From: Verrucomicrobiaceae bacterium
GTDB lineage: Bacteria > Verrucomicrobiota > Verrucomicrobiia > Verrucomicrobiales > Verrucomicrobiaceae
Direction: 5' to 3'
Assembly (NCBI GenBank): GCA_016795365.1
Contig: JAEUHN010000047.1
Span: forward strand, 62,001 to 126,000
DNA: 64,000 bases
The number at the start of each line of letters is the position of its first letter. Within the stretch, counting starts at the first letter, position 1. The notes below the pieces were generated by a model, which saw nothing but the letters and a program-made list of their open reading frames with translations, was not told where the DNA came from and made no database searches. The position numbers and the translations under genes were made by a program. Below are positions 27,417-61,288 of this stretch, piece after piece.

Positions 27417-30400
27417 ATGACTACTCTTCGTCCATTCCATCAAGCCCGGCAGAAAGTCGTGCCGCTCATGATTGTGGCTCTGGCATTCTCCCAGATGCGG
27501 TCATCGGGTATTGATGTCTATCTCAACGGACGCAGTGATGGCTTCACTGGCCCCGGCAGCTTCTCCAACTGGAGCTATCCAACCGCCCAGGACCGCATTA
27601 TGTGGGGTGGTGGACTCGCGGCTGGGGCCATGACCGCGAATGCGACTACACCTCTCGGTTCGAACCTCTTGTCAGTGAAGGGCATCAAGGTGCTGGACGA
27701 TGCCACAGGTGCCCTGACCATTCAGGCCCACGGAAGTGGCAATACCACGCAGACGCTCCTTCTCGGTGATCAAGGCATTGACCTTGGGTTCGCCAGCCAA
27801 AACCTCACCATCAACAAGTCCAATGCCGGACGCACCCTGGGAGTGACCCTCGGCACGGCACAGACGTGGATCGCTGGTAATGGGCGCACGCTGGCTGTTA
27901 ACGCCGATGTCACGGCCAACAACAACCAGCTCACGCTCGCCACCCGTGGCTCGGGGGCCATCACTCTTGGTGGTGCGACGAACATGGGGACTGGAGTGCT
28001 CACGATCGACAAGCAAGGGACCGGTGCGATCAACGTTACGGGAGCGCTCACGGCTGGCACCATCAGTGCGGTCAATGCTAACAGTGGCACTGTGACATTC
28101 GGGACGACGGGCACCGCTGCGGTCAATGTCCCCGTCCTCAATCTGACAGCTTCGAGCACGGGTGGTTACACCTTCGCTGGGGCGACAACGGCGAACGGAG
28201 GCATTACCTTCAATGGTCTCGGCTCCAACACGCTGCAGTTTAGCAGCACGCTGTCCACCTCTGGTGGCAATGGCAACCTTACCGCTACGACGACCAACGC
28301 TGGCGCGCTGACGTTTGTGGGCGCCGTGAATCTTGGGACTGGAACCTCGACTCTCAATCTCCACACGAGTGGTGCTACTCAATTCCAGTCCAGCCTCAAC
28401 GCAGGCTCGCTTATCGTGAACTCCACCAAGGGCGGTGCCATGACCTTCACTGGGGCGCTCACAGCCCCGACGGTGACGATCAACACCAAGGGGACAGGGG
28501 CTTTGACATTTGGCAATGCCAACAGTGTCGGCACGACTGGCTTGAGCGCCTCCTCAGCCTTCACGATGAACAACATTGGTGCGGCCAACGCCACCTTCAA
28601 CAGCACCGTCACATCGCCAACCATCAACATTAACACGGCTGGTGCCCTGACGATGTCGAGAGCCGTCTCGGGCACCACGTTGAACTTTACCACCTGGGGC
28701 GGTGGCGCGGCGAGCTTCGGTGAGACCGTGAGCGCAACGTCCGTGCTGAACTTCACTGCCAATAACAACAGTGCCACGACTTTCACAGGCACGGTCACAG
28801 CACCCACATTCAACCTCATCAACCGTGGCACGTCCGCTGTTACGACCAACGGGATTAGCGCCACAACAGCGATCAATATTACCAATGACAGCACTGGTGC
28901 CATCAACCTGAACGGACCCATCTCGGGTGCCGGAGCGCTTACGATCGTCAACAACAGCACCTCTAGCGGCACGGTGGTGAAGCTGGCTGGCAATAACACC
29001 TTCACCGGAGCTACTTCAGTCACAGGGGGCACTCTTCAACTTGACCTTGCCACTGCGAACAACAACAAGCTCGCCGACGCGGCTGCGCTGAAGCTCAATC
29101 GCGCCATCGTGAACATTACGGGTCCGACCAGTGGCGGCGTCCAGGAGTTGATCGGAAGTCTTGCTCTCGATGGCGGTTTCAATCGAATCACCCGCAGTGC
29201 TGGAACTGGGACGATGAGGGTCAATCAGATTACTCGTAGCGCTGGTGCCGTGCTCGACATGGGGGCGGCAGGTCTTGCCGACACAGACCGCCTCAATACT
29301 TTTGGAATTTTGGGCGGTTGGGCCACCATCAACGGCACAGACTGGGCGATCAATGCGACGGGTGCAGGCGATGGCTTGATCAACGCACTGGCGACTTATA
29401 CCACGCAGAACACTGTGACCTCGTGGACCACACCATCCCAGAATATTCTTGTAAACCTCACCTCTGGAAACACGACGGGCACGCTTTCAGGAACCACAAC
29501 GATCAACTCGCTGAAGATCGACAATGGCGCTGGCACCACTAACATCAACGTAGCAGCCCAGGCGTCTGGCTCCACATTGGTCATTGATAGCGGCGGTATC
29601 ATTGTCCGCGGCACGGGCACGGGTGGAACGAAGACCATTGGCTCTGCTGGTGGCAATATCACTGCTGGAACCCTTGCCAACGCGACCGCTTATCGTGCAG
29701 GCGCAGCCACGAGCGATCTCTTCTTCCACGTTGGATCGACTCCCGACACCATCCTTAACTCCAACATCATCGACAATGCGGCGTTAACGGGATCCACCTC
29801 CGTCGGCTTGGTCAAAACGCAAGCGGGCAAGCTCATTCTCCTTGGCAACAATACCTACACCGGAAAGACGACCATTGGTGGCGGCACCCTTCAGGTGGGC
29901 AACAATACGGCCACAGGGACGCTGGGAAGCGGCCCGATCGAGATTGGCCCTGGAGCCACCCTCGCTTACACCCGCACTGATGCGGTGACTCTCGGTAGCA
30001 GCATTTCAGGCGGTGGTGGGCTTACCCAGAACAATGCGACCGGTGCGCTGACTCTCTCCGGCAACAACACTTACTTCGGCAGCACAACCATCTCGCTCGG
30101 TGCCATCAAAGCGGGTTCTGCCAATGGGTTGTCCCTGAACTCGCTGTTTAGCCTGGCGAATGTTGCCAGCGCGTCACTTCAATTGAATGGATTTGATTCT
30201 TCAATCGGAAACCTGGCTGGGGGCGGCACCACTGGTGGGAATATCGCTCTGGGCGGCAACAAGCTGACGATCGCTGCTGGCAATGCTTCTCAAACTTATG
30301 CGGGCATCATTTCGGGAACGGATGCCAGTTCTCTCGTCAAACTGGGAACGGCAGTCCTCACGTTGTCTGGTGCCAATACCTTCACGGGCACCGTCACCGT

Positions 30401-36400: not shown

Positions 36401-39400
36401 GAAAGGTGGTGTCGTGGAGATCAATAGCAGCCGTCTCACTTTCGATGACGGTGATGAGAAGAGCGTGAATGGCCGCATTATTGGCAGCGGCGATCTGAAT
36501 ATTCAGGGCGGGACCATGAACCTCTATGCCACGGATAATTCGTTTACTGGCACTCTGATGGTGACCAATGGAACTGCGCGGGTTCGCACCTTGGCAAACA
36601 ACAACGTCCCCAGTTCGGCTGGATCAGGTGCTGACATCCAGTTGGGATGGCATGACGCGAGCGTTACTCCAGTGTCGCTCGGGACGGGAACGCTAGAATA
36701 CATCGGACTTGGCTCGACCACCAACCGGAACATCATTCTCGGCTCTCCATCGGCGGAAGCTTTGGATGTGGCCAGAACATCCTTCACGGTTTCGTCGAAT
36801 GGTCTTGGTGCACTCGTTCTTAACGGCAATGTTGTGACAACAAGTGTCTCCGGTGTTGATGTGGTGGGACGCAAAGCATTCGTGCTCACAGGTGAGAATA
36901 GAGGTGACAACATCTTCTCAGGAAACATCACTCCGACATCCATTGCTGCCTCCGATGAAATCGACTTGGTGAAAAATGGGAATGGGACTTGGCACCTGAC
37001 GGGAGGGAACCGCAGTTCCTTCCGGGGCGATGTGGATATCAATGGTGGCATTTTGGTGGTCGATAGCCTTTCCGAGCTTGGAAATCTTGCGGTGGCTAGA
37101 GATTTTAATATCGGTGCAGGCACTCTTCAGGTGCAGACTGCGGCGGCGATCACCGAGACCCTGGCCGCAAACATTCGGATCGGCAGCACAGCCACAGGAG
37201 GCATCTCGAATATCGGAAACAGCACGCTCGTTATTAACTCAACGATCTACTCAGCAACGATCAATGACGACCCTGCAAATCCACTTAGCGGGGCTGGATC
37301 GCACAACCTTGTCCTTGATGGCACAAACACGACCGCCAATACCATTAACGGCGTCATCGGAGGCGTTGGCAATAACATGGGCATCACCAAGAACGGTTCG
37401 GGCCGTTGGGTGATCGCCAATTCGGCCAACTTGCTGACAGGTGGAACAACCATCAATGCTGGCACGCTCGAGATCACAGGGGGCAACGCTCTGGCTGACG
37501 CAGGAACGGTGAACCTCTCGAATGCGGCTGTGAATGGCTTTGCTACGGGCAACTCACGTTTGAACATCGGGCAAAGCGAAACCATCGGCGCACTGCAGGG
37601 AGCGATTGGCACAACGGTGGCTTTGGCTGCTGGCCAGACCCTGAGCCTTGTCGGTGGCTCAGCTACCTTCCAGGGCGTGATTCAGGAAGACGGACCAGGT
37701 GCTGGGCTAACCGTCACCAGCAACACCAACGATTCCGCACGCATTGCAACTTTCTCAAACATCAACACCTTCAGCGGACCCGTTTCAATCTTGGGCGGAA
37801 CTCTCCCAGATCGAAGCGCGGCAAATCGAATCGATGTTTACTATCTCGCCAATGGGGGCACGGGCTCGGGTATTGGCAGCTCGTCAAATGCGGCCTCCAA
37901 TTTGACCATCAACACCAATGGCAAAGGCGGCGGTCTTCGTTACATCGGTTTCAATACTGTAAACACAGATCGCTTGTTAACGCTGGGCGTGGGCAATGGT
38001 GCGACAATCGGAGAGAGTGCGGCTTCCATCTGGGCTGACGGTCAGATCTCTGGCAACAAGGTTCCGGTGCTCAATTTCACCAACACGGGCGCTCTGGCTT
38101 ACACAGGATCGGGGAATCGAAAGCTGACATTCCGCGGCGGCAATCGTGGTGATGGCGTGAACTTGAATACCTTCAGCCCGGCCATTGCCGATGGGCCTGG
38201 GGGAGTAACTTCGATTGGCAAGACTGATGACTCGGTCTGGCTGATCAATGGCAACAACACCTTCACTGGTTCAGTAGCGGTTGAGCGCGGCACGATTGCG
38301 TTTGCCGGTTCTGGATTGGGCACGGGAACAGGCACAGTGACTGTGACCCAGCCCTCCAATGACATACGGTCATTCTTCGATCTCAAAGGAGGCGTGGTGA
38401 GTAACCGCAATGTGGTGCTGGTTGGTGGTGCCAATAACACAGGCAATGGTTGGGGAGCCAGTGCCGGAGTGAACGTGTGGAATGGTTCAGTCGCAAATGA
38501 TGGCGGTAACGGCATCTGGGGAGTGCTGGGTGCCTCCACAGTGCTGACCATTAACGGTGTCGTTACAGGGGGTAACACCATCAACAAAGTGGGTAACGGA
38601 AGGCTGGAATTGGCCGGGGCTAACACCGCGTCGGGCGCGATCAATGTGATGGGCGGAACTCTGAAGCTCAACTACGCCACCCAGAACAACAGCAAGCTAG
38701 CAGACTTTGCTGGTCTTACATTGGGTGGCACTGGCGCGACTGCAGTGCAGGGTGGCGGCAATCGAGGCGGCACAAGCACCGCTTTTCAGCGGGGCAGCAT
38801 CATTGAGATTGGTGGCGGCAGTCACACGGAAGTCGTTTCTGGAACCAATCTCAATGCGGGCGCGTCTTCCATCACAAGGTCCATCGGTGACACGGGCAAC
38901 TCGAAGCTGAACCTTGCAGGTATCACTTCTAATGTGGGAGGCACTCTCGATGTGGTTCTTCCTGACTTCTTGGTCACGAATGCAACGACGACGGCCAGTT
39001 CAACGACAGTAACCTGCGACAGCACTGGTTTGATTGCGCCGGGCATGATCATCAGTGGCCCGAACATTCCAATGGGCACTACGGTTTTGAGTATCACAGG
39101 CCCCCAGACTTTTGTTCTGAGCCGTCCTGCGAATGGAGCGGGTTCTGGACAAACCCTTCGCGGACTGGCTTCCAGCACCGTGACGTTGACCCGCGTCTTC
39201 ACCAACAATGGCAATACCACCATTACCTGCGCCAGCACGGCCGGTCTCTCCCCTGGCATGGTAGTGCTGGGTGCAAGTATTCCAGCCGGCTCGAACGTTA
39301 GCGCAGTGGATAGTGCCACCACATTCAGAGTAACCACAGCACCAACGCAGACTTCGGTGAACATCACTGTCAACAGTGTGTCCTTCCCGGCCAATTATGT

Positions 39401-42400
39401 CAGCGGCAGTAAGGTGGTTACTTGCGCGAGCACGTCTGGCATTGCAGTCGGTCAAGCCGTGAGTGGAACGAATGTGCCCGCGTCAACGACGGTCGCCGCT
39501 GTGACGGGGCCGACTACTTTTGTATTGAGCAATGCTGTGACGGCAACGGTGGCTGTTCCTCTGATTCTCTTTACAGTGCCCGGTGGAGCTACGCTGGCCA
39601 ACGGCTCGACCAATGGAACCAACACAATCACTGTGACATCCACTGCGGGTCTTGTTCCAGGAATGATCGTCTCTGGAACGAATATTCCCGTCGGAGCGAA
39701 GGTCGCTTCGGTGAATACTAATGGAACAGAGTTTACGATTGATGTTCCAACCACAGGCAATGGAAGTGGAATTGCCATCGCGGCTGCAACACAGTCAGTT
39801 GCCCTCACCAGCACTCTCAACAACACAACGGTTACGGGTGTTTTGGGTGGTTATGTGACCGTCAATAAGACGTTCTGGGCACAAAGTGGAACAACTGGCA
39901 CCGGGTTGGCGATCGTTCCGGCAACCAACTATTTCTCATCACTTCAGAACTCCACGCTCCCAGGTTTGTGGAGCAACCAACCCGCGTTCGTCAATGCGAA
40001 CTTGGATATTGCTGCCAGCATGAATGCGAGTGGGACGATCGGTCTGGTGACATTCAACACTCCCACCAGCGTGAACGTCACAGTCCAAGGAAAAGCCAAC
40101 GTTTCTACCGGTGGGGTCCTCATCACACCCAACGTGGGTGCCAACACGATTTCGTTCAATGTTGCATCGACCAACACCTACAACCTGACTAACTGCGTCA
40201 CGACAGCAGCAAACGTCAAAGTCGTGTGCGATTCGACGGCAGGTCTCGTGGCTGGCATGGCGGTTACGGGCCCAAACATCCCGGCGAATTCGACAATCGC
40301 TGCCATCAATGATGCGACGAGCTTCAATCTCGGCAGCGCCACGGGCGTCACCGCAGGCACCGGACTGTCGCTTACGGCTTCCTACCTCACCTCGGTGACC
40401 AATTGCTCGTTTACGACCGCAAGCAGGAACGTGACGTGTGATTCGACGGTGGGCCTGTTAACGAACTCGTTGATCAGCGGTCCTGGCTTCCCTTCTGGGG
40501 CCTCGGTGGAGTCGATCACGAACGCCACAACATTCGTTGTCAATGTGACGCCGTCCGCAGCCAGCACCCCTGGCACCACTCTGACGGTTAAGCCCGCCAT
40601 CACGGGTGGTAATACCGGTGGTGCAGCCCAGCTTGCTATCCACCAGCACAACACCGCTGCACCTGTGATCCTCAATACTCCGATCGTCAACAGCGGCACT
40701 ACTGCGATCGCCCTGACCAAGTCCGGTCTTGGTGAGTTGGTCTTGATGGGTAACAACACGCAAACCGGCGGCACCTTCATCAACGAAGGAACGGTTCGAG
40801 TCGGCCAGGGTGGGACCGCTGAAGCCACGCTGGGCGGCAATGCCGCCACCCAGGTGAACGGAACCCTTATCCTTGATGCAGCGGGCGCTGAAACTCGTCT
40901 TGCCAGCAACGGCAACTTCCGCGGTGACGGCACGGTGACGCTGGCTGCTACCAATACCCGTGCCTGGGTAGTGGGAGGTAGCAGTGGTGCGTTTAACGGG
41001 ACCATTAACGTGCTCGGCGGCAAACTCGTGATGGCTCCGAGCCTCGATAACGACGATGTGGGTTTTGGCTCCAGCAATTCGACCATGATTGTGGGCCCGC
41101 TCGGCACGATCGAATTCCGTGGCAACACCCGCACAGACGAGCAGTATGGCATGGCTAACAATCTTACCCTTTACGGCACGGTTCGCGCAGATTTCCAGGA
41201 TGTGGTGACAGGCGTTGTTCCTCGTATTCAAAGTGCGATCACGATACCGACGATGGTGCCCGCTGAGCTGGCTCCAGGGGGAATCAGCGTCGCCAATAAC
41301 CCGGTATTCGACATCGTCACGGCAGCACAACTCAACCTCAACAATCTGATCTACTCCAGCATTGGGATCACCAAGATGGGCCAGGGGCGTTTGGTTCTGA
41401 ATGCGCAACAGACCTCAGATGCTCTACTGGGTGACACCGGTCGCTCAGCTAGCTACACGTTGTCTGGACAGATTCGCGTAAATCAAGGTGAGTTGTGGCT
41501 GTCGGGCGGCAATCGTGCTAGCGGCGCGCCTGGCGTGGGCAATGAAATTGTCGTGGCCAGCGGAGCCACTCTCGACCTGCGTGGTCAGTCGATGAACTAT
41601 GCGGACGATGCCTCCCCGCTTCGCAAGATCATACAAATCCAGGGCGCTGGATTCAGCCAACCCTTCGGTGCTGGAACGATTTCTACCGGAGCCCTTCGCA
41701 ATACGACAGGCACTGCAACCATTTCCCACCTTGAGCTTCTTGGTAATGCCACGGTAGGCAGTGGCGGCGTGGCCAACAACGGACGTATTGACCTCCAGCC
41801 CTATGACATCAATCCGAACACGGGTGCTGCAGTGGGCTCTTTGGTGAACTTCCAGCCTGCAACCCTCACATCCGTGGGTGGTAACTATAACCTGACCAAG
41901 ATAGGCACCGTGGACTTCGTGATCCATGACGCACTAGTGACCGGCCTGAACCAGTTCAAAGTGGCCGAGGGTGAGCTTCGCTGGGAAATCAACAACGCGC
42001 CCAACGCCGGAAACGGCAACATCACGGCTGCTGGCATCCAGAACTTGTTGATCGCCTACAGCAATCAGTCACCGCTGGATGCCACGCTGGGAACCCCCTC
42101 GGGTGGACCGTTGGTGCAGGGGCCTGTGGTCGGATCACGTGTCGAGTTCTACCGCAACTACAACCAGCACCACACCATGCCGATCAGTATGGATGGCGCG
42201 ACCGCCGCGGCGAACAAAGGCACCAACTACCTTGAGGCCAACAGTGACGGAGCCTCTGGTTCCTCAGTCCCCGCATCACGTGTGTATCTGGATGGAGGAA
42301 TCTCGGTCTCCGGTCCGGCTACGAGCAATATGTTCAACATTGATGGTGGTCTGGGTAACAACGTCCTTGCAAGTCAAGGCAACCAATCCCAGGACGTGCT

Positions 42401-45400: not shown

Positions 45401-48400
45401 TTCCGTGTCTGTCACGGACGGCACCTTCACCTGGAGCCAGGCAAGCGGGTCGTCCTCCAGCCTCTGGACCGTGAGCTATAATGCGAGCACGCAGGTTGTC
45501 AGCGTGACATATAACCCTGCGCTCGGCGCAGCACGCACTCTGACAATCAACTGCTTGGTCCAAGGAACCAGCCGCATCAACCTGAACATCAGTGCGGATA
45601 ACACTGCTGCCCTCGCCAATGGTATCATTCCTTGGGCAGTAACGGGCACGGGGCCGAATCTTGCTCACGAATTTGCGTTGATCGACGCTACGGATGGCAA
45701 CCGGGTGAAGGGTTTTGGACGTTCGCCTGACGAGTTCAAGAACGACATCACTTTGTGGTCTCGTGGCGAGGATGTTTCGGAAGATACCGCCGACTCCCGC
45801 ACGGGCGGTGCAGGCTTCTATGGCACGCTGGCTGCGGGAGGAACGGTGAACACGCTGCGCTTCGATGCTGCTGCCGATAGCGCGATCAACGTAGCTTCCG
45901 GACAGTCTTTGTTCGTTGCCAATTCGGGCCTGCTGGTGACCTCGAACACCGGAGTTGCCAACAAGACGATCAATGGAGGTCGTTTGGTGGCATCACTCAT
46001 CATGTCCGGGCGAGTTACGAAAGACCAGAACATCGTCACGGGTCTGGATAGCACCTCGGAACTCTACATCGGCATGCCTGTCAGTGGCACAGGCATTCCT
46101 GCAGGCACGTTTGTGCAGGAGATTGTCTCGGCTACTTCGGTCAAGCTCACGACTCTGGCCACGATCACCACGGTGAGGCCCACCCAGGGAATTCAGTTCG
46201 GCACAGCCGAGTTGATCGTCCATCAGTATGGCCAGGGAGATCTGACCATCAATTCGGGCATGGGCAATGGCACAACCTCGCTGGCCAATGGAGTGACCAC
46301 CTTGGGATCGAATGTGGTGACTGTTCCATCGACGGTTGGGATTGTCCCTGGCATAATCCTCATCGGCAATAATATCCGTGCTGGTGCCACGGTGGTTTCG
46401 GTTACCAGTGCCACTACCTTCACCATGAGTCTGCCAGCGTTTGCCGGGGGCAATACTGGAAGCATCCTGCTGGTGGCACCGAGGACCATGCCCGCAACTG
46501 TGGCAGGGGCAAATGCCAGCTCTGGCAGTGCCGTTGTCACTGTGGCAACGACTGAGCCAGTGGTGGAAGGTATGGTCGTCACAGGCCCTGGCATCCCCAA
46601 TGGAACCTTGGTCCTGACTAAAGACTCGGCGACGCAGATCACTCTGACGAACAAAGTCACGTCGGCACTGAACAATGACGTGCTCTATGTGACGATGCCC
46701 AATGACGTTCCCTCGGCAGCGGTGGTATTCACGGGTGGTGTGACGCGTTTGGATTCTACCCTGGCATCGGTGTCCAGCACCGCACCAATGTTTGAAGGCA
46801 TGGGAATCGTTGGCACCAACATCCCCGCTAACACTGTGGTGCGCACGCTGGCATCAAGTGCAGATCCAAACAACCTGACGGACTTCCAGCTCAGCCAGAA
46901 TGCAACCGCAGCGGCCAGTGGACTGACGTTCACCGCCATCAAAGGAGCAGTCGTGCTGAACAATGCTTCTGTAACTGCCAACTCGAATGTGGTGAATGTC
47001 ACTTCGACGACCGGCCTGTTCCCCGGAATGCCTGTGCTTCTTCCTCATGTTCCTGCCGGTGCAGTCGTCCAGACGGTGCCCAGCTCGACATCCTTCACCA
47101 TCAGCATCCCGGTCCCAGCGGTGATCAGCGGGGCCACCACAGGGCTGACTGGGTTTGTCCAGTATCCAGGTTCAATGCCTTCACTCCTTACCGGCGGCCA
47201 GACCTTCAGCACCCCAGGCAACGAGCGCAAGTTGGTGGTGAGCACCACAGCAGGCATCACGGTGGGTCTCCCCATCATCGGGCCCAATCTTCCGAGCGGG
47301 ACGGTGGTTGAGCAGGTGTTCAATGCGACGACGCTCATTGTGAGCAAGAACGTTACAGGCGCTGGCACAGGCAATTATCTGATCGGCACCAAGAGCTACC
47401 TGCCGCTGACATTGTTGAATGCCATCATTACGAACGGCTCGAATGTCATTCATGTAGCCAGCACGGCTGGACTTGGAGAAGGGCTGGTCGTCATTGCCCC
47501 AGGCATCCCAGGCGGTGCAACTGTGGTGGAAGTGAACAGCTCGAATGCGTTCACTGTGAGCAGCAACGCCAATGCCAGCTCGAGTGGCAACACGATAACC
47601 GTGGTGTCACCGATGAGTCTTGTGGTAAGCGGTCCTACCACGACCACCGGGGGAACGGTGAATACCGGAGCGGTTGTGTTGACCAACACAGATAACAACT
47701 ACGGAGGCAAAACCTACATCAATGGCGGCATCCTCAGCATTGACGATGAAGCGGTCCTCGGGCCCGAACCTGCGAACGAAATCACCGATCAGATCACGAT
47801 CAACGGTGGCACCTTGCGCTGGACCGGTCCGAATGGACTGCTCTCACAAACCCGTGGTATCACGCTGGCAGCCTCAGGTGGTGTCATCGATGTGGTGAAT
47901 CCATCGACGAACCTCATGATTCAGAAGGGTATCGTCAGCCAGGAATTGTATCGTGGAGATCTTATCAAGACGGGTGCCGGGACCCTCACCTTTGAGGGCG
48001 ATAACGGCAATATGGGCAGCTTCCAGGGTTTGATTGATGTCAAACAGGGCACCTTGCGTGTCGCAGGCGACAATCCAGGTGCTGGTGCTGGCACTTCGTC
48101 CATCTTTGGTTCGAACATCAGCTGGGCCGACGGAACGGTCATGCGTTCGGGCACCAACCTGATGCTGCAGATGGGTAACGCGAACGGCGGTGGCGATTGG
48201 AACTTCGAGGAGTTCATCACCTTTGAAGGCAATAACTTCGTCACAGTCGGCACTTTGGGTGCTGCGGTGCGACCGATGAACTGGAATGGTCCGATCGCCA
48301 TGAATGGCACCACCACCTTCGAGATCGTGCCCGGCCAGATATTCCGCTTCAATACCGGTGGCGGCTTCATTCAGGGCAACGGAGACATCGTCAAAGATGG

Positions 48401-51400
48401 CCAGGGCACTCTGGAGTTCCGCGAGAACATCCCTGATTGGAAGGGGGGGCTGTCCATTCTCCAGGGACGCACGCTGTTGGTGAACCAGGGCGACGCGATG
48501 GGAAGCGGAAATAGGATTGCCTTTACCCCGACGCTCCAGAATCCTGCGCCTGCCGCTGGCACTGGTTCGTTCATCGACGGAAACGTCTTTACCAACACGA
48601 AGTTCATCACGCTCGGCAGCAATCAGAGCCAGGGTGTTGCAGAGTTGCTCATCCAGCCTGATTTGGGCACGGCCGGAAGTGTGTGGGAAGTTAATCACCC
48701 GATCAATGTGGTCTATGGCCCAGCCCAGACGAAGCGGCTTGGGGCAGCATTCATCCCCAATGTCAATGGGTCCATCCAGCGCTTTAACGGTGACATCACA
48801 CTCAATGACAACCTCATTCTCTACTATGAGGACAACAACGCCAGCACCGCAGCTGGTGGTGAGTTTGTGAATGTGGAATACAACGGGCGGTTCTTCGACG
48901 GCTCGCTGACCAGCGGCAATCTGGTGATCGACACGAACGAGGGGGCCAACGGCGGCACTCGTGTGGACAACACGAATGGACGCACCTTTGTGACGCATTC
49001 GTTCAATGCAGACAATTCAGGCTGGACGGGCGACCTCGTCATCAGCAACAACACCACCTACGGTCCAGACCAGACTTCCATCGCTCGCCTCGGCCACAGT
49101 TTGGCTCTGACAGCCAAGAACGACGTCACGATGAACTACAACTCCATCCTGCAAGCGGGTGGTAATTCGGTGACGATTGGCTCGTTACAGACGAAGGGGG
49201 GCACTGGAGCGTTCCTTGGCAATGTTGGAACCGTTAGTGCCAACGTGAACGCCAGCACCGAGATCATCGAGAACGCTGCCCTCACTCCGGGCACGCTGCG
49301 CATTGCTCAAGCAACTCCTTCAAACGTTGAGGTGAAATGGGATGCTCACTTCCGTGATGGCACACCTGCCAGCACAGTTACTGCCCCTGGCTCTTCGATA
49401 GGTGGAGCAAGCCTGAGCATCGTCAAAGCGGGAGAAGGATGGGCGTCGCTCACGTTGCAGAATCAATACACGGGAACGACTGTCGTTGAGCAGGGAATCT
49501 TGCAGGTGGGTGTCAATGGTATTGGCGACACTGGCGCGGTTCGAAATGCCAACATCGCGGGCCTCACTTTGAACGCAGGCGCTACACTCGCGGGCTCTGG
49601 CACTGTGCAGGGGGCTGCGCTTCTCAATGGCTTGATCAAGCCTGGTGATGTGGGTGGCGCTGCGATGGGGACTCTCTCCATCACCGGCAACGTCGTTTTT
49701 GGAGCTGGATCTGAGACGTTCTTCCAGATTTCGCGTCCTAGCTTCACAATGCCTGAGCTGCTCAATGCTACGGCTGCCGTCGTTGCCGATCCTGTTTATC
49801 AGAGTCAGCGAGACAATCTATTGCTCTATGACACCACCAAATACGTGAACGAGCTGAACACACCGGTTCTGAGTTCGCAGCACGACAGCTTGACCATTGG
49901 TGGCACAGTGCAGGTGACACCGGGGGCTAAGTTTACTGTGTTGCTCAATGGCTATTCACCCACTGCGGGAGACGTGTTCCGTCTGCTCAACCTTGATAGC
50001 AATAATACGCTTGATGCCACCGGAGCGCCCGGCCTCTTGGCGATCTCGACTGGCAACGCTCTGCAAAGCGTGTCATCAGGTATCGAAGACTTGATCCTGC
50101 CTTCACTTGGAGACGCCTTCCTCTGGGACACGAGCATGTTCACTTCCCATGGCTTGCTGCTTGTCGTTGGCTCTGGCCCCGTGCCAGACAACCTAACGCC
50201 AACCACTTGGCCGCTGAACCGCCTGGTCCCGCTTAATTCTTCGTGGACGATGAACGTCGCGGCCGCAGGTCAACAACCCATCTCCTATATATGGAAAAAG
50301 AATGGTGCGCCAATCGTTGGTGCAACTGGAGGAAGCTACACAATTCCATCGGTGAACGCTTCCACTGTCGGCAAATATTCGGCATCGGCGACGAACTCAA
50401 GCGGCTCGGTCGAACGGCCCGCTGCCGTGATCGCCGCGGTTGATACGACGACGACTTCGACCACGCTTCTGAAGACAAATGGGACGACGACGCTAAAGGT
50501 GGTGACGGCTATTCCGACCGCCGTGCCGGCTGGTTACTTTGGTTATCAGTGGATGCGGAATGGAGTGCCGATCAATGACACAGACACAGCTGCTTCGTCT
50601 GCCTCGATCAAACCCTATGTAGGCACAACGACCGCGACTCTGACGATCAAGTCTTTTGCCGCTGAATTCGAAGGTGTTTATACATGCCGGGTGACGATGT
50701 CGAAATCGATTCCCAATACGAGCAATCCAACCACTGCTCCATCGCTGGTCACTGGTGCAAACACAGTATTGCTGGCGTCCATTCCGGAGATTGGTCCAGT
50801 GGCACTGCCTTCTGGCAAGGTCGGTAGCACCTATGGTCCGCCTTCGGGTTATCAGGTGCCTCATACCACCACGCCGGCGAACAAGAAACCCACGAGTTGG
50901 AGTGCAACCGGCCTGCCGACTGGCTTGACTATCAATCCTTTGACAGGGGTGATCAGCGGAACGCCGACGCAGTCCACGACCTCCACCATTAAGTTCGAGA
51001 ACATTCGTATTACGGCAACGAATGCCGCTGGCAGCGTCACCGCAGGGCCCTTTGCCATTGTGGTGGCACCGCTGAGCACCAACGTGGTTGGCACTTTTGT
51101 TGCCCTGGCTGATCGCACGGGAACTGACACCACGGGCACACTGGGACTTGGGGCTCGCCTTGATGTTACGGTCGGCGCCAACGCTCAGTGGACAGGCAAG
51201 CTCATCATTGGAGCCGTCAGTTATCCCATCTCTGGAAGCCTGAATTCATCGGGCCTCAATCCGACGGCAACCAAGGCAATCACCCGTTCGGGTGAGAAGC
51301 CTGCGAAGAGCAACTTGAACTTGTTCCTTGAGTTTGATGCATCAAACGGAGGTCTGGTTTCGGGCACCATTACTGACGCTGGGGCCAGCCCCACAACCGC

Positions 51401-53792
51401 AACGCTGAGCGGCTGGAGGGGTGCGTTCAGTGCAACGATCCCAGCTACAGCTCGTGCTGGCATCCACAACTTCAAGGCATCGATTCCGGCGCTCCTACAG
51501 GGCGACGAAGCGAACTATCCGCAGGGTGACAGTTACGCCACGGCGAATGTTTCGACAGCTGGTTCTGTCGCCGTTGCTGGCAAGGCCGCTGATGGCTCTG
51601 CTGTGACCACCACCGCACCATTGGGTGCGTCAGGCCAGTTCTTGATTTACCAGTTCCTTTACACGGCTGCCAAGCCTGGTTCGTTGGTCGGAACAGCGAC
51701 CATTGACGACGTTCCCAATGTGCATGCAGTGACTGGCGCTCTCACTTGGAGCCGCACGGGCGGACAGCTGGCCACGACTCCATATCCTAATGGCTGGGCA
51801 GCTCCGATCCCGCTCACTGTTATGGGTGGTCTTTATGTGCCGCCGGTGACTCCGTATGTGGTCATGGCTGCCAATCCTTCGGCCGCTACTAACGCGAAGA
51901 TCACCTTCTTCGACAGCACAGGCATTGATACTTCAGAGTCGGCGCAGGCGGTTGACGCCAATCTCGCGGCCTTTAAGATCAAGAGTCCAGCCGTTTACAC
52001 TGCGCCCGCATCAAATCCGGCGTCTGTGACGATGAGCATTACCGCTGCAACGGGAGCAATGACTGGAACCTTCAAACTGAACGACGCTGGAAAGACTCGC
52101 AGCGTAAGCTACTTCGCTTTGATTGTGCCTGATACCACTACGGCAAGCACTATCGACCAAGTCGGCGCAGGCTACTTCACCTTGCCTGGACAGCTTGCTG
52201 CCACGGGAATCAGGTCGGGACGCGTGAATATGGTTGCCGACCCGGCACCTGCTCCAGCTTACGCGCCAGTATTGTTGCCTCCGACGTTCCCAACGGTGGC
52301 GGTTTCCGCAGCATTCAATTATGCCTTCCCATACGACCTCGATCCCGCGAAGGCTCCCACAGTGTGGACAGCCACAGGTCTTCCAAAGGGCCTGAGCATC
52401 AACTCTTCAACGGGTGTGATCAGTGGAACGCCTGTTGCGACCAGCACCGGACCAGTCACGTATAACGCCATTTATGTGACCGCCAAGGGACGTGGCGGTG
52501 TGACGGTTCTCGGACCGTTCACGATGGTTGTTGCTCCGATCCATCCCAATGCCATCGGCACCTTTGTGGCCTTGGCTGAGAGAAGTGGCGGCACGGCTAC
52601 TGGAAAGGGTGCGACCAATGGCACATTGGGCATTGGAGCTCGCGTGGACATCACTACCACCTACACAGGAACTTACACCGGCAAGCTTGTTGTTGGTGCC
52701 ACATCCTACGCTTTGACTGGCAATCTCGACAATTCGGGAGCTAACCCAAGAATTGTGAAGATAGTGACCAGAGCGGCTCCGCTCACACCGCTGACCGTCA
52801 CATTCGACATCCTGACAACCGGCTCACGCCTGGTGACAGGCACGATAACAGACACCGCAGCAACTACTGCGAATATCAGCGGTTGGGGCTTGGTATGGAA
52901 CACAAACAAAGTGGGTGGTAATCCTGCTACGGCGCGTGCGGGACTCCATAACTCGATGATCTCAATTCCGGCACTGCTGGAAGGTGACACCGCGAACCCG
53001 GATGTTCCTCAGGGTGATGGCTACATGTCCGCCAATGCAAGTTTGGCGGGTTCCGTTGTGGTGGCCGGCAAGACGGCCGAAGGCGCGGCCATCACTTCCA
53101 CTGCTCCAATGGGGCCCAACGGCGAATTCCTCGTTTACCAATTCCTCTACACCGCGACCAACCCCGGATCCATTTCCGGCGCACCCGTCATCAGTAGTGC
53201 CAACCATGGTGTCTCAGGCACCTTGGCTTGGGTTAAAGCGCAGCAAGATACTGGCACGCTTTACAAGGCGGGATGGCCGGCCGCAGCCCTCAATCTTGAA
53301 GTTTCAGGTGGGCTCTATGTAGTGCCCGTGAAACCAAACAACATTTTGGGTGCCCGCAGCGCTGATTCTCCGGTGGGAGTGGCTGTGAACTTCAACGATT
53401 ACATCAACGCGACCGTCACTTTCTTTGGTGACAACGGATTGTCCGCCAGCTATTCAGCCACGAATCCCAATCACGACCTGAACAACGACGGTGCGACGAA
53501 GCAGCAAGGAGTGCGAATTCTTAGCCCGGCGACGCTGGGAACCACAACTACGCGGGAGAACCCTGGTGCAATGACGATGACATTTACCGCAGCGACGGGG
53601 CTGTTTACCGGCTCCATCACGCTTAAAGATGGGGCGACCACGCGAGTTGTCCCATATTTGGGGATGATTGTTCCAGACGCGACAACCGCAACGGCGAACG
53701 ATGCGATCGGCGCAGGCTATTTTGTTCTGCCGCCGCTGAGTCCCGCCACTGCGTCCAAGTCGGGGCGGGTTTCATTGCTCCCGATCTTCTGA
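27417..53792 (+). CDS. Giant autotransporter-associated beta-strand repeat protein (8791 aa)
   Basis: This single open frame of 26.4 kb encodes a predicted surface or secreted beta-helix protein. A signal-like N-terminus (residues 1-31, MIVALAFSQMRSSG) comes first. Short TINTKGTGALTF-like beta repeats follow to about residue 550. At least 18 autotransporter-associated beta-strand repeats are then spread over ~560-7400; examples are VKTQAGKLILLGNNTYTG (nt ~29810), FVKTGPGTLMMAGRNTNTG (~32570) and LTKVGNASVVLDGLNTYTG (~43710). Two blocks of GMxVxGxxIPxGT repeats are embedded. The C-terminus has two Ig-like domains (~7590-7765) and a duplicated module of putative-Ig (He_PIG) plus an unknown domain. 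No autotransporter barrel, PEP-CTERM, Por sorting or LPXTG signal was found. It is followed 178 bp later by Verru_Chthon cassette genes A-D, whose products look like minor pseudopilins. Export through a T2SS-like route is therefore the best guess. Charged residues are scarce; Gly, Thr, Ser, Asn and Val dominate. Confidence 0.93.
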   Translation: MTTLRPFHQARQKVVPLMIVALAFSQMRSSGIDVYLNGRSDGFTGPGSFSNWSYPTAQDRIMWGGGLAAGAMTANATTPLGSNLLSVKGIKVLDDATGALTIQAHGSGNTTQTLLLGDQGIDLGFASQNLTINKSNAGRTLGVTLGTAQTWIAGNGRTLAVNADVTANNNQLTLATRGSGAITLGGATNMGTGVLTIDKQGTGAINVTGALTAGTISAVNANSGTVTFGTTGTAAVNVPVLNLTASSTGGYTFAGATTANGGITFNGLGSNTLQFSSTLSTSGGNGNLTATTTNAGALTFVGAVNLGTGTSTLNLHTSGATQFQSSLNAGSLIVNSTKGGAMTFTGALTAPTVTINTKGTGALTFGNANSVGTTGLSASSAFTMNNIGAANATFNSTVTSPTININTAGALTMSRAVSGTTLNFTTWGGGAASFGETVSATSVLNFTANNNSATTFTGTVTAPTFNLINRGTSAVTTNGISATTAINITNDSTGAINLNGPISGAGALTIVNNSTSSGTVVKLAGNNTFTGATSVTGGTLQLDLATANNNKLADAAALKLNRAIVNITGPTSGGVQELIGSLALDGGFNRITRSAGTGTMRVNQITRSAGAVLDMGAAGLADTDRLNTFGILGGWATINGTDWAINATGAGDGLINALATYTTQNTVTSWTTPSQNILVNLTSGNTTGTLSGTTTINSLKIDNGAGTTNINVAAQASGSTLVIDSGGIIVRGTGTGGTKTIGSAGGNITAGTLANATAYRAGAATSDLFFHVGSTPDTILNSNIIDNAALTGSTSVGLVKTQAGKLILLGNNTYTGKTTIGGGTLQVGNNTATGTLGSGPIEIGPGATLAYTRTDAVTLGSSISGGGGLTQNNATGALTLSGNNTYFGSTTISLGAIKAGSANGLSLNSLFSLANVASASLQLNGFDSSIGNLAGGGTTGGNIALGGNKLTIAAGNASQTYAGIISGTDASSLVKLGTAVLTLSGANTFTGTVTVGAVDGANVGGLTISGATAIKGATVNAGTLTVTHATATTNMTIGGAVNVTGGSFVMGGTGTNTISGALNVSNAGAASFSGASPSINTITGAVTVGNAGSVSFTNVANITGKVSVNDQASFALNGAAANNTLTGGLEVAPGASVALSGNTTFNGAGLLLNNGGALTMAGANVFNGPLVIGGPLALTLSNTTTANVFNGQVTVNAGSLAVSHATNTFNGLVTMASPNTLNVTGTGVTTFGAGASVTNGTLSVAGSANVSAGGISTSNVGSVSVTGLTTVAAGGLNLAGSGNMTFTGGVNVTGTSSFNNTGLLTIGGSNTFNGNVIFSNPRPVTLTAPVVNGAITVNSGSITVLGPTSGLTGLTANNGGGLIVTAAPSVTALPINLSGGPSNAASSLTINGTLTAQVGTLPLNTSAFLGSGVTAELAPSSATTYAGVIAGSGGVAKNGSGDATISGGNSFTGTLAVNSGTLFAAPSTSNPGISGVIGDRASVVVASGATLDISGRSETVGSLAGAGSVQLGQNGELVAGRNNSSTVFSGSLLGSGSSSLTKQGNGTLTLSGSSTGANSKVTVEGGSLVLASPGNSALPDTTDVDLARLGTSLVVNTSESVRILSGAPGTSVQINGGATLTASYFDTAFTSIGGTLTGGSRVVTGMDSPGTRFLTAGMYISESNFIDNGTWVTQVVGTGLTGSQGLLLGSNILSPGGVGTINFYKVGVLNSALTGAGNFVKTGPGTLMMAGRNTNTGDTVVNQGTVVLGGIESGGRYIFQNILSDQSAVVLGTSARVEMPLNASNLLPFERVGSVSGGGGSAAFSLVSAFSSSEKSVGALAFGGDNSDRTFVGVIEGQDTAARVFVMKEGSGTFVYRANNLGYDGITRVDGGTWVIPAPTAFNSFSSGLNGSAAQSRLELSNRAGVVFRTEITQPMPFLVGGVGVTKTFRTGTLGALAGNYINQTGGELQVGVGAAFAVNGTGGETWFSGAVTGAGGFSKSGTVAMVLAGANTYTGDTVVAGGDLHLGYLSAGAGVGDLRPGGQSGSFSASTLVNLSGGGSVHLNGLNTSVRTLASSNGSAVVTLGNGTITLEDGSGETFQGAIRSGGGFSSSGNGLVNIGQVVLKTGSWTVKGDQTIDGPSVAVQSGGVLNINSSTNNALRDSTRVFVGTGGSVVVGGDSGNSAETIGSLHGTGTVNLGTGRTLVLTQAGGSSHGIFGGQITGSGSSLVLDGIGRLDLQGTNTYSGETAVKGAATLSFSVGTGTSSTRLSDSSVLRLGQGNILLRDGRDTNGSTLANPIAPTIETVAGLTLDRGANTIRQEPGSLGAMNVGNITVNQGAALNVSKNAVLTTASNLETHPGGALAAPYLGGWATFDGRSWAKVSELDGGETVISGLEEGAYVSGWFPGSHTLLTGSFSVTPSGSNTSITTETLAIGAITGLAADLVINRTGVINSGGILVTPELGGAEFNILPGANSPALRPGGNQFFVHQYNAQGVTKIAVPLEDGTSATSLTKTGQGTLVLTARNTFSGPVTIGGGTLQLGDGTSTETQLLSFSTGDMINHGILSGNASSGDVIDVSNNVVGSGGVRQIGEGGLSLSGAQNTYTGRTSVVRGQLDATTPTALGSTDNLTAVELGATLSVLDNILEPVALKGGTINTIANLGGTLIVAGDSNVNVTSGQVSLNAPVLAPLNHVPTFSVSGDVLNLTQPMAVRSVVFAGGNVNVQAGATLGAGTIVNDGALSFVTGNTHRAIAQQISGTGGLTFNSGEWFIGENNTYTGRTEIGFAPEVGGATPSTVRTVVHVGLDGFSGSLGTGDIEVTSPTDNNSAIRFHRMDTLTVPNQILLNPNTNGSTAARNVDFVKEGLGNLVFTGTLISGRTDLAPATQRALVTVNGGGRMIFQGGGATHHNFDNSNSRLIAINNNGHIEFRSNDPSHTDTIYGALGGGGTWVFNGGTIQLANQGLNSGGWNGNAFVNKGVLETSIDDQLGADLDIIVTNGGTLRVGGIDSSGNLFSQKGGVVEINSSRLTFDDGDEKSVNGRIIGSGDLNIQGGTMNLYATDNSFTGTLMVTNGTARVRTLANNNVPSSAGSGADIQLGWHDASVTPVSLGTGTLEYIGLGSTTNRNIILGSPSAEALDVARTSFTVSSNGLGALVLNGNVVTTSVSGVDVVGRKAFVLTGENRGDNIFSGNITPTSIAASDEIDLVKNGNGTWHLTGGNRSSFRGDVDINGGILVVDSLSELGNLAVARDFNIGAGTLQVQTAAAITETLAANIRIGSTATGGISNIGNSTLVINSTIYSATINDDPANPLSGAGSHNLVLDGTNTTANTINGVIGGVGNNMGITKNGSGRWVIANSANLLTGGTTINAGTLEITGGNALADAGTVNLSNAAVNGFATGNSRLNIGQSETIGALQGAIGTTVALAAGQTLSLVGGSATFQGVIQEDGPGAGLTVTSNTNDSARIATFSNINTFSGPVSILGGTLPDRSAANRIDVYYLANGGTGSGIGSSSNAASNLTINTNGKGGGLRYIGFNTVNTDRLLTLGVGNGATIGESAASIWADGQISGNKVPVLNFTNTGALAYTGSGNRKLTFRGGNRGDGVNLNTFSPAIADGPGGVTSIGKTDDSVWLINGNNTFTGSVAVERGTIAFAGSGLGTGTGTVTVTQPSNDIRSFFDLKGGVVSNRNVVLVGGANNTGNGWGASAGVNVWNGSVANDGGNGIWGVLGASTVLTINGVVTGGNTINKVGNGRLELAGANTASGAINVMGGTLKLNYATQNNSKLADFAGLTLGGTGATAVQGGGNRGGTSTAFQRGSIIEIGGGSHTEVVSGTNLNAGASSITRSIGDTGNSKLNLAGITSNVGGTLDVVLPDFLVTNATTTASSTTVTCDSTGLIAPGMIISGPNIPMGTTVLSITGPQTFVLSRPANGAGSGQTLRGLASSTVTLTRVFTNNGNTTITCASTAGLSPGMVVLGASIPAGSNVSAVDSATTFRVTTAPTQTSVNITVNSVSFPANYVSGSKVVTCASTSGIAVGQAVSGTNVPASTTVAAVTGPTTFVLSNAVTATVAVPLILFTVPGGATLANGSTNGTNTITVTSTAGLVPGMIVSGTNIPVGAKVASVNTNGTEFTIDVPTTGNGSGIAIAAATQSVALTSTLNNTTVTGVLGGYVTVNKTFWAQSGTTGTGLAIVPATNYFSSLQNSTLPGLWSNQPAFVNANLDIAASMNASGTIGLVTFNTPTSVNVTVQGKANVSTGGVLITPNVGANTISFNVASTNTYNLTNCVTTAANVKVVCDSTAGLVAGMAVTGPNIPANSTIAAINDATSFNLGSATGVTAGTGLSLTASYLTSVTNCSFTTASRNVTCDSTVGLLTNSLISGPGFPSGASVESITNATTFVVNVTPSAASTPGTTLTVKPAITGGNTGGAAQLAIHQHNTAAPVILNTPIVNSGTTAIALTKSGLGELVLMGNNTQTGGTFINEGTVRVGQGGTAEATLGGNAATQVNGTLILDAAGAETRLASNGNFRGDGTVTLAATNTRAWVVGGSSGAFNGTINVLGGKLVMAPSLDNDDVGFGSSNSTMIVGPLGTIEFRGNTRTDEQYGMANNLTLYGTVRADFQDVVTGVVPRIQSAITIPTMVPAELAPGGISVANNPVFDIVTAAQLNLNNLIYSSIGITKMGQGRLVLNAQQTSDALLGDTGRSASYTLSGQIRVNQGELWLSGGNRASGAPGVGNEIVVASGATLDLRGQSMNYADDASPLRKIIQIQGAGFSQPFGAGTISTGALRNTTGTATISHLELLGNATVGSGGVANNGRIDLQPYDINPNTGAAVGSLVNFQPATLTSVGGNYNLTKIGTVDFVIHDALVTGLNQFKVAEGELRWEINNAPNAGNGNITAAGIQNLLIAYSNQSPLDATLGTPSGGPLVQGPVVGSRVEFYRNYNQHHTMPISMDGATAAANKGTNYLEANSDGASGSSVPASRVYLDGGISVSGPATSNMFNIDGGLGNNVLASQGNQSQDVLLKMIVGAPISGLGGISKIGFRELRLTANNTYTGDTIIARSGNMALPGRSDTVSLNGVDYTTLGAAESWGEFGLTLNGGGRISGTANVIMERTGMLTLDNSTRLDASSAAVTTNLSDRVNNAANVIMRQGWLRLIGADTGNTSEAIATVGGAKLQAQSGTNLIDLWPKEGSNQTLTLTIGEITRSPGAVLRFRNLDATSGFSSTAVGSHENVQVALTSLGSLPEVGSGASATSRKIIPGLLGGSAPNGIYEDTRLTSDLFSQGRNLQNATGSHFMTWDGGFLRPLDDSEYASTSNGVISSALNGQNVNVTDFNHFVRESVSLNSLRFGPTMDSNASGSALHDGSQITSYTDNWQPTIYIDSSAVLSVASGMISSAAFGVVGTGIDETTRIRGGAIDFGSREGIINNQNYWLRLTDGTYQTNNFELQTAIRGSGGLTKVGNASVVLDGLNTYTGTTTINDGVLFARNGRSALGANGRANGVINTGNNIVVQGSGDFRLTNGVMIGAPGAPKDLLVKILSGESQILRSENGNNAFYGNITLDNVDANGHTSQLGRPRMSANTNQSLVINGDIAGGNTALTDDIYYTDSRMLSLNGAGYIWLRGQVGDKFDSNGLPVPVSGVVTSLPSSATVTNENQVFRLQITANDDLNVAFDKQYNAAGRLSMDRGVMLVNYDPAALGLGETGFWTQAALSRLTGDPALGGSTTTITSNSTNANGLTSQHGFLLANNLGDGGGTAAVFLTKANQVFNMPEWRVSNNHGGAAWIGGTNETGTVTFGGLSGVYTSGLGTLSLDKTARFYAMSGGNVVINHRLNGGSFIKVGRGKVTLQNSVVKTGSDTQSFELSGGELVLDMNGQFTTSGTTNTPVALVGNVGTFTSTGGILRVQGVSKDWGGLLGGADPASGNNVTVSISTNNDAAGRLVRFNSGLTQIIADARDGKNVTLSMGSTVTQNNGVGSVQRTLGATASFVAYNSTGPTAYSQTANMAASITTAQNTTISGVTVVNGSVSVTDGTFTWSQASGSSSSLWTVSYNASTQVVSVTYNPALGAARTLTINCLVQGTSRINLNISADNTAALANGIIPWAVTGTGPNLAHEFALIDATDGNRVKGFGRSPDEFKNDITLWSRGEDVSEDTADSRTGGAGFYGTLAAGGTVNTLRFDAAADSAINVASGQSLFVANSGLLVTSNTGVANKTINGGRLVASLIMSGRVTKDQNIVTGLDSTSELYIGMPVSGTGIPAGTFVQEIVSATSVKLTTLATITTVRPTQGIQFGTAELIVHQYGQGDLTINSGMGNGTTSLANGVTTLGSNVVTVPSTVGIVPGIILIGNNIRAGATVVSVTSATTFTMSLPAFAGGNTGSILLVAPRTMPATVAGANASSGSAVVTVATTEPVVEGMVVTGPGIPNGTLVLTKDSATQITLTNKVTSALNNDVLYVTMPNDVPSAAVVFTGGVTRLDSTLASVSSTAPMFEGMGIVGTNIPANTVVRTLASSADPNNLTDFQLSQNATAAASGLTFTAIKGAVVLNNASVTANSNVVNVTSTTGLFPGMPVLLPHVPAGAVVQTVPSSTSFTISIPVPAVISGATTGLTGFVQYPGSMPSLLTGGQTFSTPGNERKLVVSTTAGITVGLPIIGPNLPSGTVVEQVFNATTLIVSKNVTGAGTGNYLIGTKSYLPLTLLNAIITNGSNVIHVASTAGLGEGLVVIAPGIPGGATVVEVNSSNAFTVSSNANASSSGNTITVVSPMSLVVSGPTTTTGGTVNTGAVVLTNTDNNYGGKTYINGGILSIDDEAVLGPEPANEITDQITINGGTLRWTGPNGLLSQTRGITLAASGGVIDVVNPSTNLMIQKGIVSQELYRGDLIKTGAGTLTFEGDNGNMGSFQGLIDVKQGTLRVAGDNPGAGAGTSSIFGSNISWADGTVMRSGTNLMLQMGNANGGGDWNFEEFITFEGNNFVTVGTLGAAVRPMNWNGPIAMNGTTTFEIVPGQIFRFNTGGGFIQGNGDIVKDGQGTLEFRENIPDWKGGLSILQGRTLLVNQGDAMGSGNRIAFTPTLQNPAPAAGTGSFIDGNVFTNTKFITLGSNQSQGVAELLIQPDLGTAGSVWEVNHPINVVYGPAQTKRLGAAFIPNVNGSIQRFNGDITLNDNLILYYEDNNASTAAGGEFVNVEYNGRFFDGSLTSGNLVIDTNEGANGGTRVDNTNGRTFVTHSFNADNSGWTGDLVISNNTTYGPDQTSIARLGHSLALTAKNDVTMNYNSILQAGGNSVTIGSLQTKGGTGAFLGNVGTVSANVNASTEIIENAALTPGTLRIAQATPSNVEVKWDAHFRDGTPASTVTAPGSSIGGASLSIVKAGEGWASLTLQNQYTGTTVVEQGILQVGVNGIGDTGAVRNANIAGLTLNAGATLAGSGTVQGAALLNGLIKPGDVGGAAMGTLSITGNVVFGAGSETFFQISRPSFTMPELLNATAAVVADPVYQSQRDNLLLYDTTKYVNELNTPVLSSQHDSLTIGGTVQVTPGAKFTVLLNGYSPTAGDVFRLLNLDSNNTLDATGAPGLLAISTGNALQSVSSGIEDLILPSLGDAFLWDTSMFTSHGLLLVVGSGPVPDNLTPTTWPLNRLVPLNSSWTMNVAAAGQQPISYIWKKNGAPIVGATGGSYTIPSVNASTVGKYSASATNSSGSVERPAAVIAAVDTTTTSTTLLKTNGTTTLKVVTAIPTAVPAGYFGYQWMRNGVPINDTDTAASSASIKPYVGTTTATLTIKSFAAEFEGVYTCRVTMSKSIPNTSNPTTAPSLVTGANTVLLASIPEIGPVALPSGKVGSTYGPPSGYQVPHTTTPANKKPTSWSATGLPTGLTINPLTGVISGTPTQSTTSTIKFENIRITATNAAGSVTAGPFAIVVAPLSTNVVGTFVALADRTGTDTTGTLGLGARLDVTVGANAQWTGKLIIGAVSYPISGSLNSSGLNPTATKAITRSGEKPAKSNLNLFLEFDASNGGLVSGTITDAGASPTTATLSGWRGAFSATIPATARAGIHNFKASIPALLQGDEANYPQGDSYATANVSTAGSVAVAGKAADGSAVTTTAPLGASGQFLIYQFLYTAAKPGSLVGTATIDDVPNVHAVTGALTWSRTGGQLATTPYPNGWAAPIPLTVMGGLYVPPVTPYVVMAANPSAATNAKITFFDSTGIDTSESAQAVDANLAAFKIKSPAVYTAPASNPASVTMSITAATGAMTGTFKLNDAGKTRSVSYFALIVPDTTTASTIDQVGAGYFTLPGQLAATGIRSGRVNMVADPAPAPAYAPVLLPPTFPTVAVSAAFNYAFPYDLDPAKAPTVWTATGLPKGLSINSSTGVISGTPVATSTGPVTYNAIYVTAKGRGGVTVLGPFTMVVAPIHPNAIGTFVALAERSGGTATGKGATNGTLGIGARVDITTTYTGTYTGKLVVGATSYALTGNLDNSGANPRIVKIVTRAAPLTPLTVTFDILTTGSRLVTGTITDTAATTANISGWGLVWNTNKVGGNPATARAGLHNSMISIPALLEGDTANPDVPQGDGYMSANASLAGSVVVAGKTAEGAAITSTAPMGPNGEFLVYQFLYTATNPGSISGAPVISSANHGVSGTLAWVKAQQDTGTLYKAGWPAAALNLEVSGGLYVVPVKPNNILGARSADSPVGVAVNFNDYINATVTFFGDNGLSASYSATNPNHDLNNDGATKQQGVRILSPATLGTTTTRENPGAMTMTFTAATGLFTGSITLKDGATTRVVPYLGMIVPDATTATANDAIGAGYFVLPPLSPATASKSGRVSLLPIF
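38971..40600 (+). repeat. Six GMxVxGxxIPxGT repeats inside the giant protein (block 1)
   Basis: Four units lie at about 38971-39795 and two at 40183-40600. Each reads roughly CxSTxGLxxGMxVxGxxIPxGTxVxxVxxxTxFxxS over 45-60 residues, for example STAGLVPGMIVSGTNIPVG. Most units in this block carry a Cys at the TCDST/TCAST position, in a protein otherwise almost free of cysteine. Similar units are known from large surface and phage fibre-like proteins. Their role here is unknown. Confidence 0.75.
45997..47614 (+). repeat. Seven GMxVxGxxIPxGT repeats inside the giant protein (block 2)
   Basis: This second block holds about seven more diverged units of the same motif, for example STVGIVPGIILIGNNIRAG and STAGLGEGLVVIAPGIPGG. 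Unlike block 1 the units carry no Cys. A further weak unit may lie near 32290-32460. The two blocks are some 5.4 kb apart, suggesting duplication and divergence within the gene. Confidence 0.7.
50781..53789 (+). repeat. Tandem duplication of a ~500-residue C-terminal module
   Basis: Module 1 (about 50781-52239) and module 2 (52260-53789) share the same order. A He_PIG domain (SATGLPTGLTINPLTGVISG / TATGLPKGLSINSSTGVISG) is followed by a ~400-residue domain with GTFVALA, PATARAG(I/L)HN, SIPALL, YQFLYTA, GGLYV, GAGYF and SGRV. The second copy ends at the protein C-terminus. I infer a surface-attachment or secretion role; nothing in it names an enzyme. Confidence 0.8.
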
Positions 53793-61272: not shown

Positions 61273-61288
61273 CGATGGCTTCGTCGGT

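Follow-up and report, generated by a model that had tools for sequence, protein, structure and literature searches.

We identified, in the genome of a Verrucomicrobiaceae bacterium, a giant PATR-repeat protein whose gene is directly followed, on the same strand, by a complete Verru_Chthon cassette of four genes (A-B-C-D) with pseudopilin-like products. The giant ends in a C-terminal domain of about 400 amino acids that also terminates many other proteins of the same bacterium, and in related genomes the position immediately upstream of the cassette is recurrently taken by a large secreted protein. This arrangement has the same anatomy as the PilY1 system, a large non-pilin secreted protein beside four minor-pilin-like genes. 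On this basis we tentatively suggest that the giant may be a Sec-exported surface protein whose C-terminus sorts it and which a dedicated pseudopilus tip displays or drives out of the cell. The features are listed in Table 1, with positions counted from the first letter of the window, the whole stretch of 64,000 nucleotides that was analysed.

The giant's open reading frame begins with ATG and runs for 8,791 codons, while the other five frames contain between 121 and 589 stops over the same stretch. No repeated word of 16 bases or more was found inside the ORF, and a TRF scan detected no tandem array within it, so that collapse of repeats is unlikely. An orthologue is present in an independent MAG, KLAP44 (L108), where its last 2,414 codons remain open and genes A and B again come next. 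Over the 2,407 codons shared the two proteins are 84% identical, and dN/dS is 0.106/2.43 (NG86) or 0.101/1.64 (YN00), with synonymous sites close to saturation. Given the open orthologue and a dN far below dS, the gene is genuine and constrained over the last 2,407 codons compared, and it is for this part that the purifying selection asserted in the original prediction is borne out. The genome is a draft of 55 contigs, which leaves some room for an artefact in which repeats were misassembled or the open frame is non-coding. However, the absence of repeated 16-mers and of tandem arrays, the orthologue and the low dN make this explanation extremely improbable, and the KLAP44 comparison already refutes it for the last 2,407 codons; misassembly, named beforehand as grounds for refutation, was therefore rejected. 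The frame had also been described as one of the larger bacterial ones. It is large, but it holds no record, as a PATR protein of 9,694 aa is encoded on contig C25 of the same genome.

Table 1. Features of the giant gene and the adjoining cassette (positions in the window)
Feature	Position	Strand	Basis
Giant PATR-repeat protein, 8791 aa	27417..53792	+	ORF, repeat matches, dN/dS
Likely Sec signal peptide: basic start, hydrophobic core VVPLMIVALAFS	27417..27509	+	inferred by eye
20 PATR/TIGR02601 repeats, first to last row in frame	28977..49511	+	profile matches
Two Ig-like domains	50232..50696	+	Pfam
First copy of the new C-terminal domain, residues 7889-8271	51081..52229	+	phmmer/profile
He_PIG (putative Ig) domain	52263..52532	+	Pfam
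Second, terminal copy of the new C-terminal domain, residues 8378-8791	52548..53789	+	phmmer/profile
Verru_Chthon cassette A, GspK-like N-terminus, 1660 aa	53971..58953	+	NCBIfam
Cassette B, prepilin-like, GspI position	58957..59466	+	NCBIfam
Cassette C, prepilin-like, GspJ-like	59500..60585	+	NCBIfam, PDB profile match
Cassette D, prepilin-like, GspH-like	60601..61272	+	NCBIfam, PDB profile match
Terminator-like hairpin at the end of D	61269..61287	+	weak: the scanned region has 8 sites of this kind against 7.5 expected

The TIGR02601 model matches 20 stretches of the giant, a total taken from four of the five pieces scanned, and a genome-wide search, in which 150 of 254 candidates were scored, also places 20 rows in this frame. 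A Pfam scan of six pieces covering the whole protein gives PATR matches that agree with TIGR02601, so the scan with TIGR02601/PF12951 that had been proposed as a check confirms the repeats. The body that they build is probably a beta-solenoid. A second type of repeat, with a motif of approximately G-M-x-V-x-G-x-x-I-P-x-G-x-x-V, was found by regular expression in eight copies, at window positions 39042-39704 and 46071-47525 (giant residues 3876-4096 and 6219-6703); it has no match in Pfam or NCBIfam. Elsewhere in the window, positions 11387-12727 (+) match the T4SS coupling protein family PF02534 (E 1.2e-58), and positions 4105-9222 (-) encode a 1705-aa protein that combines a Planctomycete cytochrome (PSCyt1), WD40 repeats, PSCyt2 and PSD1.

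The recognised exit signals are missing from the giant, as the original prediction had claimed. A Pfam scan in six pieces, together spanning the protein, finds no PF03797 autotransporter barrel, the NCBIfam sorting models (PEP-CTERM, sortase and T9SS, including the T9SS C-terminal domain) have no match in the five pieces scanned, and the tail lacks the PEP, the transmembrane helix and the basic tail of PEP-CTERM. A hidden autotransporter barrel was rejected on the same PF03797 result and on the finding that the giant's own genome is without a barrel over the cut-off; the giant thus shares its PATR repeats with classical autotransporters (T5aSS) but not their barrel. A search with SprA_N gave no match in any genome, and the control was also without a match. 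The same genome encodes four further giant PATR proteins, of 9694, 6796, 4861 and 4244 aa, with tails that are PEP-CTERM-like by eye (L065-L075; contigs C25, C40, C12 and C27 of genome G000). At least two giants end otherwise, the 8791-aa protein described here and a 5090-aa protein on contig C6. An exosortase is encoded in this genome and in all eight genomes that carry the cassette. The accompanying claim, that known systems do not explain the route out, is not supported in so far as it means that nothing points to one: the giant ends in a widespread domain and adjoins a four-gene pseudopilin-like cassette.

The last 414 residues of the giant are 44% identical to the upstream copy of the domain, and members of the family are about 340-430 aa long. 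When the last 791 aa of the giant were used to search its own genome, 46 places were found (loci were taken for 30), and a profile built from 22 sequences detects the domain at the C-terminus of at least 22 proteins with an intact end among the loci examined. In 20 of the 22 the match ends no more than five residues from the C-terminus, and in the other two it ends 20 and 52 residues before it, although the profile rows run up to each protein's stop and are biased toward a C-terminal end. With the two window copies alone as phmmer queries, most proteins likewise have no more than about 60 residues between the end of the match and the C-terminus. In eight further proteins from other genomes the domain match stops 1 to 25 residues before the C-terminus. 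Scans of five proteins or parts show that the passengers preceding the domain include Ig, Calx-beta, DUF5122 propeller, ASH and Big_9 domains. Based on its C-terminal position behind such unlike passengers, it looks like a sorting domain. Pfam and NCBIfam scans of the 22 domain rows revealed no common family, with chance matches in single rows only, and a PDB sequence search with the domain returned nothing convincing (best E 0.039). Scoring at most seven candidates per genome, we found the domain in 22 of 276 genomes of the phylum, including five of the seven genomes of the window's family; on the same basis G066 and G217 have no match. The domain also occurs in genomes without a TIGR02600 match over the cut-off, and thus does not require the cassette.

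The four cassette genes are closely spaced, with 178 bp between the giant and A and then gaps of 3, 33 and 15 bp. The cassette families are covered by TIGR02600, TIGR02598, TIGR02599 and TIGR02596; A, B and D exceed the curated cut-offs, and C scores 227 bits against a cut-off of 256.5. Of the 14 A sequences scanned, 13 have an N-terminal match to GspK (best E 2.4e-10); for C the match is to gspJ and for D to gspH. All these scores lie below the curated cut-offs, so the cassette proteins are not filed as Gsp proteins. B, C and D each carry a prepilin motif with Glu at +5. The A-type proteins have a similar prepilin-like N-terminus without this Glu, which GspK also lacks. The profiles of C and D match N-terminal helices of pilins in the PDB; the profile of B gives weak matches only, with no confident pilin structure, and a PDB sequence search with A gave no convincing match. 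A promoter scan, with two sites found and six expected, is uninformative. The genome contains a second cassette without a giant neighbour. This standalone copy (L004:2-4276, on contig C55) lies beside a divergent gene that appears sigma-factor-like by eye.

The accessions TIGR02598 to TIGR02601 run consecutively, from which we guess that the curators perhaps saw the cassette and the PATR repeat together. In the open-licence PMC literature, searches for the Verru_Chthon cassette by name or as TIGR02600 found no paper, nor did searches combining Verrucomicrobi with autotransporter and pseudopilin together, with the autotransporter-associated beta strand, or with PEP-CTERM and pseudopilin. The words 'cassette' and 'autotransporter' are absent from the main text of the PEP-CTERM paper (PMC1569441). 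The same literature yielded no paper that explains the passage of these PATR giants across the outer membrane in Verrucomicrobiota.

The genes described here agree with the Verru_Chthon cassette in comprising all four members, in the order A-B-C-D and on one strand. However, NCBIfam names these families without a function, C lies below its cut-off, and both the link to the giant and the role at a pseudopilus tip are drawn here. The cassette resembles GspH/I/J/K of the T2SS through the N-termini of A (GspK), C (GspJ) and D (GspH), but A is several times the length of the 307-position GspK model, and the cassette lies outside any T2SS gene cluster. With respect to the features expected of T2SS or T4P minor pseudopilins, the cassette provides prepilin-type N-termini, including one that is GspK-like, and T2SSE-family ATPases, secretins and prepilin peptidase are encoded in all eight cassette genomes. 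In P. aeruginosa, pilY1 lies in the same operon as fimU-pilV-pilW-pilX. In the review PMC7248040, GspH/I/J/K are the counterparts of the four core T4P minor pilins, and the PilY1 adhesin interacts with the minor-pilin complex at the pilus tip. The likeness lies in four clustered core minor pilins and one large non-pilin partner (PMC7248040). However, the giant is far larger than PilY1 and is built of PATR repeats, and cassette A has 1660 aa. Homology to PilY1 was rejected because none of the six scanned pieces of the giant contains a PilY1 Pfam domain.

TIGR02600 matches over the cut-off occur in 8 of 288 genomes, namely all seven of the window's family and one other of the class. Each of the eight holds two copies, giving 16 cassette neighbourhoods that were read. 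One of these (G078b) was dropped, as an antisense ORF hid the A gene, which leaves 15 scorable cassettes in eight genomes. At eight of the 15, a large secreted protein (823-8791 aa) with a PEP-CTERM or new-domain end, PEP-CTERM here being called by regular expression and not by a curated model, is encoded immediately upstream on the same strand. Five of these partners end in PEP-CTERM (G187a, 2817 aa; G190a, 2786 aa; G217a, 2473 aa; G217b, 1174 aa; G066a, 823 aa) and three in the new domain (G000a, 8791 aa; G199a, 5876 aa; G199b, 1207 aa). Of 268 other ORFs in the flanks that are 150 aa or longer, 6 have such an end (Fisher p 1.8e-8), a background drawn from the same flanks and not from a random genome sample. 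Four of the partners are separated from the cassette by 20-31 bp and the others by no more than 180 bp. The 5876-aa giant of G199 is preceded by a B-type pilin gene, giving the order B-giant-A-C-D with the giant inside the cassette, and the pairing of giant and cassette is kept in the KLAP44 MAG.

Such a partner is missing at the remaining 7 of the 15 scorable cassettes. On a tree of 17 A proteins the type of partner changes six times, and the labels cluster only weakly (17 of 200 shuffles were as low), so the tree does not establish a single origin of the pairing. Based on these changes, PEP-CTERM and the new domain seem to be exchanged for one another before the cassette, and partners seem to be gained and lost. 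The PATR giants with PEP-CTERM in related genomes have the same repeats and the same place before the cassette, but the window giant ends in the new domain instead. A further 150 of the 288 genomes contain weak, mostly N-terminal TIGR02600 matches, in proteins that are mostly about 700-1400 aa long. Weak matches of this kind are expected from pseudopilin-like N-termini, and these A-like proteins possibly represent a wider class of large GspK-like proteins.

The cassettes without a giant neighbour, and the frequent changes and weak clustering of partner types, would fit an explanation in which the cassette forms a type IV pilus that serves in motility, attachment or DNA uptake, while the giant, a matrix or coat protein under the same regulation, takes an ordinary and unlinked way out; on this view shared regulation alone accounts for the adjacency. 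However, given the recurrent immediate adjacency on the same strand, with the short gaps in four cassettes, and the position of the giant within the cassette in G199, we consider this unlikely. A less probable account than that of the pseudopilus tip, but one that we take seriously, is that the C-terminal domain alone crosses or reaches the outer membrane, in the manner of a T11SS barrel but with another outer-membrane partner, the cassette being merely co-regulated or building an unrelated pilus. Consistent with this are the attachment of the domain to unlike passengers and its presence without the cassette. The distribution of classical autotransporter barrels points the same way: barrel matches number six in G066 and seven in G217, the two family members with no domain match, and the window genome G000 has none over the cut-off, although the absence of the domain from G066 and G217 was judged from at most seven candidates per genome and is not proven. 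G234, which carries the domain, is also without a barrel over the cut-off, and the likewise domain-bearing G187, G190 and G199 have two to three matches. Across the seven genomes this hints, no more, at the new domain as a possible functional replacement of classical autotransporter barrels.

Structure prediction bears on the same question. For the whole domain (6 sequences) AlphaFold gave a pLDDT of 38; the first 119 residues are predicted as a meander of eight antiparallel strands (pLDDT 78, pTM 0.71). Comparison of the three lobes of the domain for internal repetition gave low probabilities, of 2.0, 5.4 and 0.4%. The top VIA match of the first lobe is the fHbp barrel (Z 8.9, 3.5 A, 104 residues aligned), and the other top matches, NHBA, HpuA and HphA, are likewise T11SS-type cargo barrels; in PMC12282271, T11SS cargo proteins are described as carrying an eight-stranded barrel at the C-terminus. 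The domain may, on the strength of this model, act like such a cargo barrel. However, Z scores of 7-9 are common for the barrel fold, avidins and designed barrels follow in the ranking at Z 7-8, where the tool warns that values below 8 may reflect merely a common arrangement, and Foldseek found no PDB match to the first-lobe model at E 0.001. The likeness concerns the first lobe and the C-terminal position, whereas the window domain is about three times longer and has no sequence relation to T11SS cargo that we could find. Slam/DUF560 (PF04575) has no match in G000, matches 5 of 35 genomes, three of them over the cut-off, and exceeds the cut-off in just 1 of the 18 domain-bearing genomes searched. 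Membership among T11SS cargo was rejected because the window genome lacks Slam. In addition, a route by the domain alone leaves the association with the cassette unexplained.

The reading that we prefer, display by a dedicated pseudopilus tip, would proceed as follows. The giant would leave the cytoplasm through Sec, using its predicted signal peptide, and its last 400 or so residues would serve as a sorting or translocation domain that is used by many proteins of the bacterium. A, B, C and D, presumably co-transcribed with the giant gene, would fill the roles of GspK, I, J and H as the giant's own minor-pseudopilin set, priming and capping a type IV pilus or a T2SS-type pseudopilus. Physical interaction with these pilin-like proteins would hold the giant in the periplasm, from where they would carry or push it out by way of a secretin. 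It would end as a tip-displayed or surface-held adhesin, much like PilY1 on FimU-PilV-PilW-PilX of P. aeruginosa. Several points count against this proposal: the cassettes without a partner, the occurrence of the domain without the cassette, the background taken from the same flanks, the Gsp scores below cut-off, the lack of a confident pilin structure for B and of a PDB match for A, the low-confidence model of the whole domain, and two more. The genome has only two cassettes, the second without such a neighbour, so the other domain-bearing proteins have no cassette of their own; and the PEP-CTERM partners are expected to be processed by exosortase, which follows a different logic.

The analysis names a large uncatalogued family of C-terminal domains. 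It is conceivable, although we hold it to be rather doubtful, that this domain acts as the address label for a secretion or sorting route in Verrucomicrobiota that has yet to be described, that it is evolutionarily interchangeable with PEP-CTERM, and that the cassette is a pseudopilus tip specialised in export, which hands repeat giants of up to almost 9,000 residues to the secretin. The Verru_Chthon families, so far named but without a function, would gain a likely role as a pseudopilus tip, and the pairing of giant and cassette offers a concrete, testable candidate for the export of giant PATR proteins.
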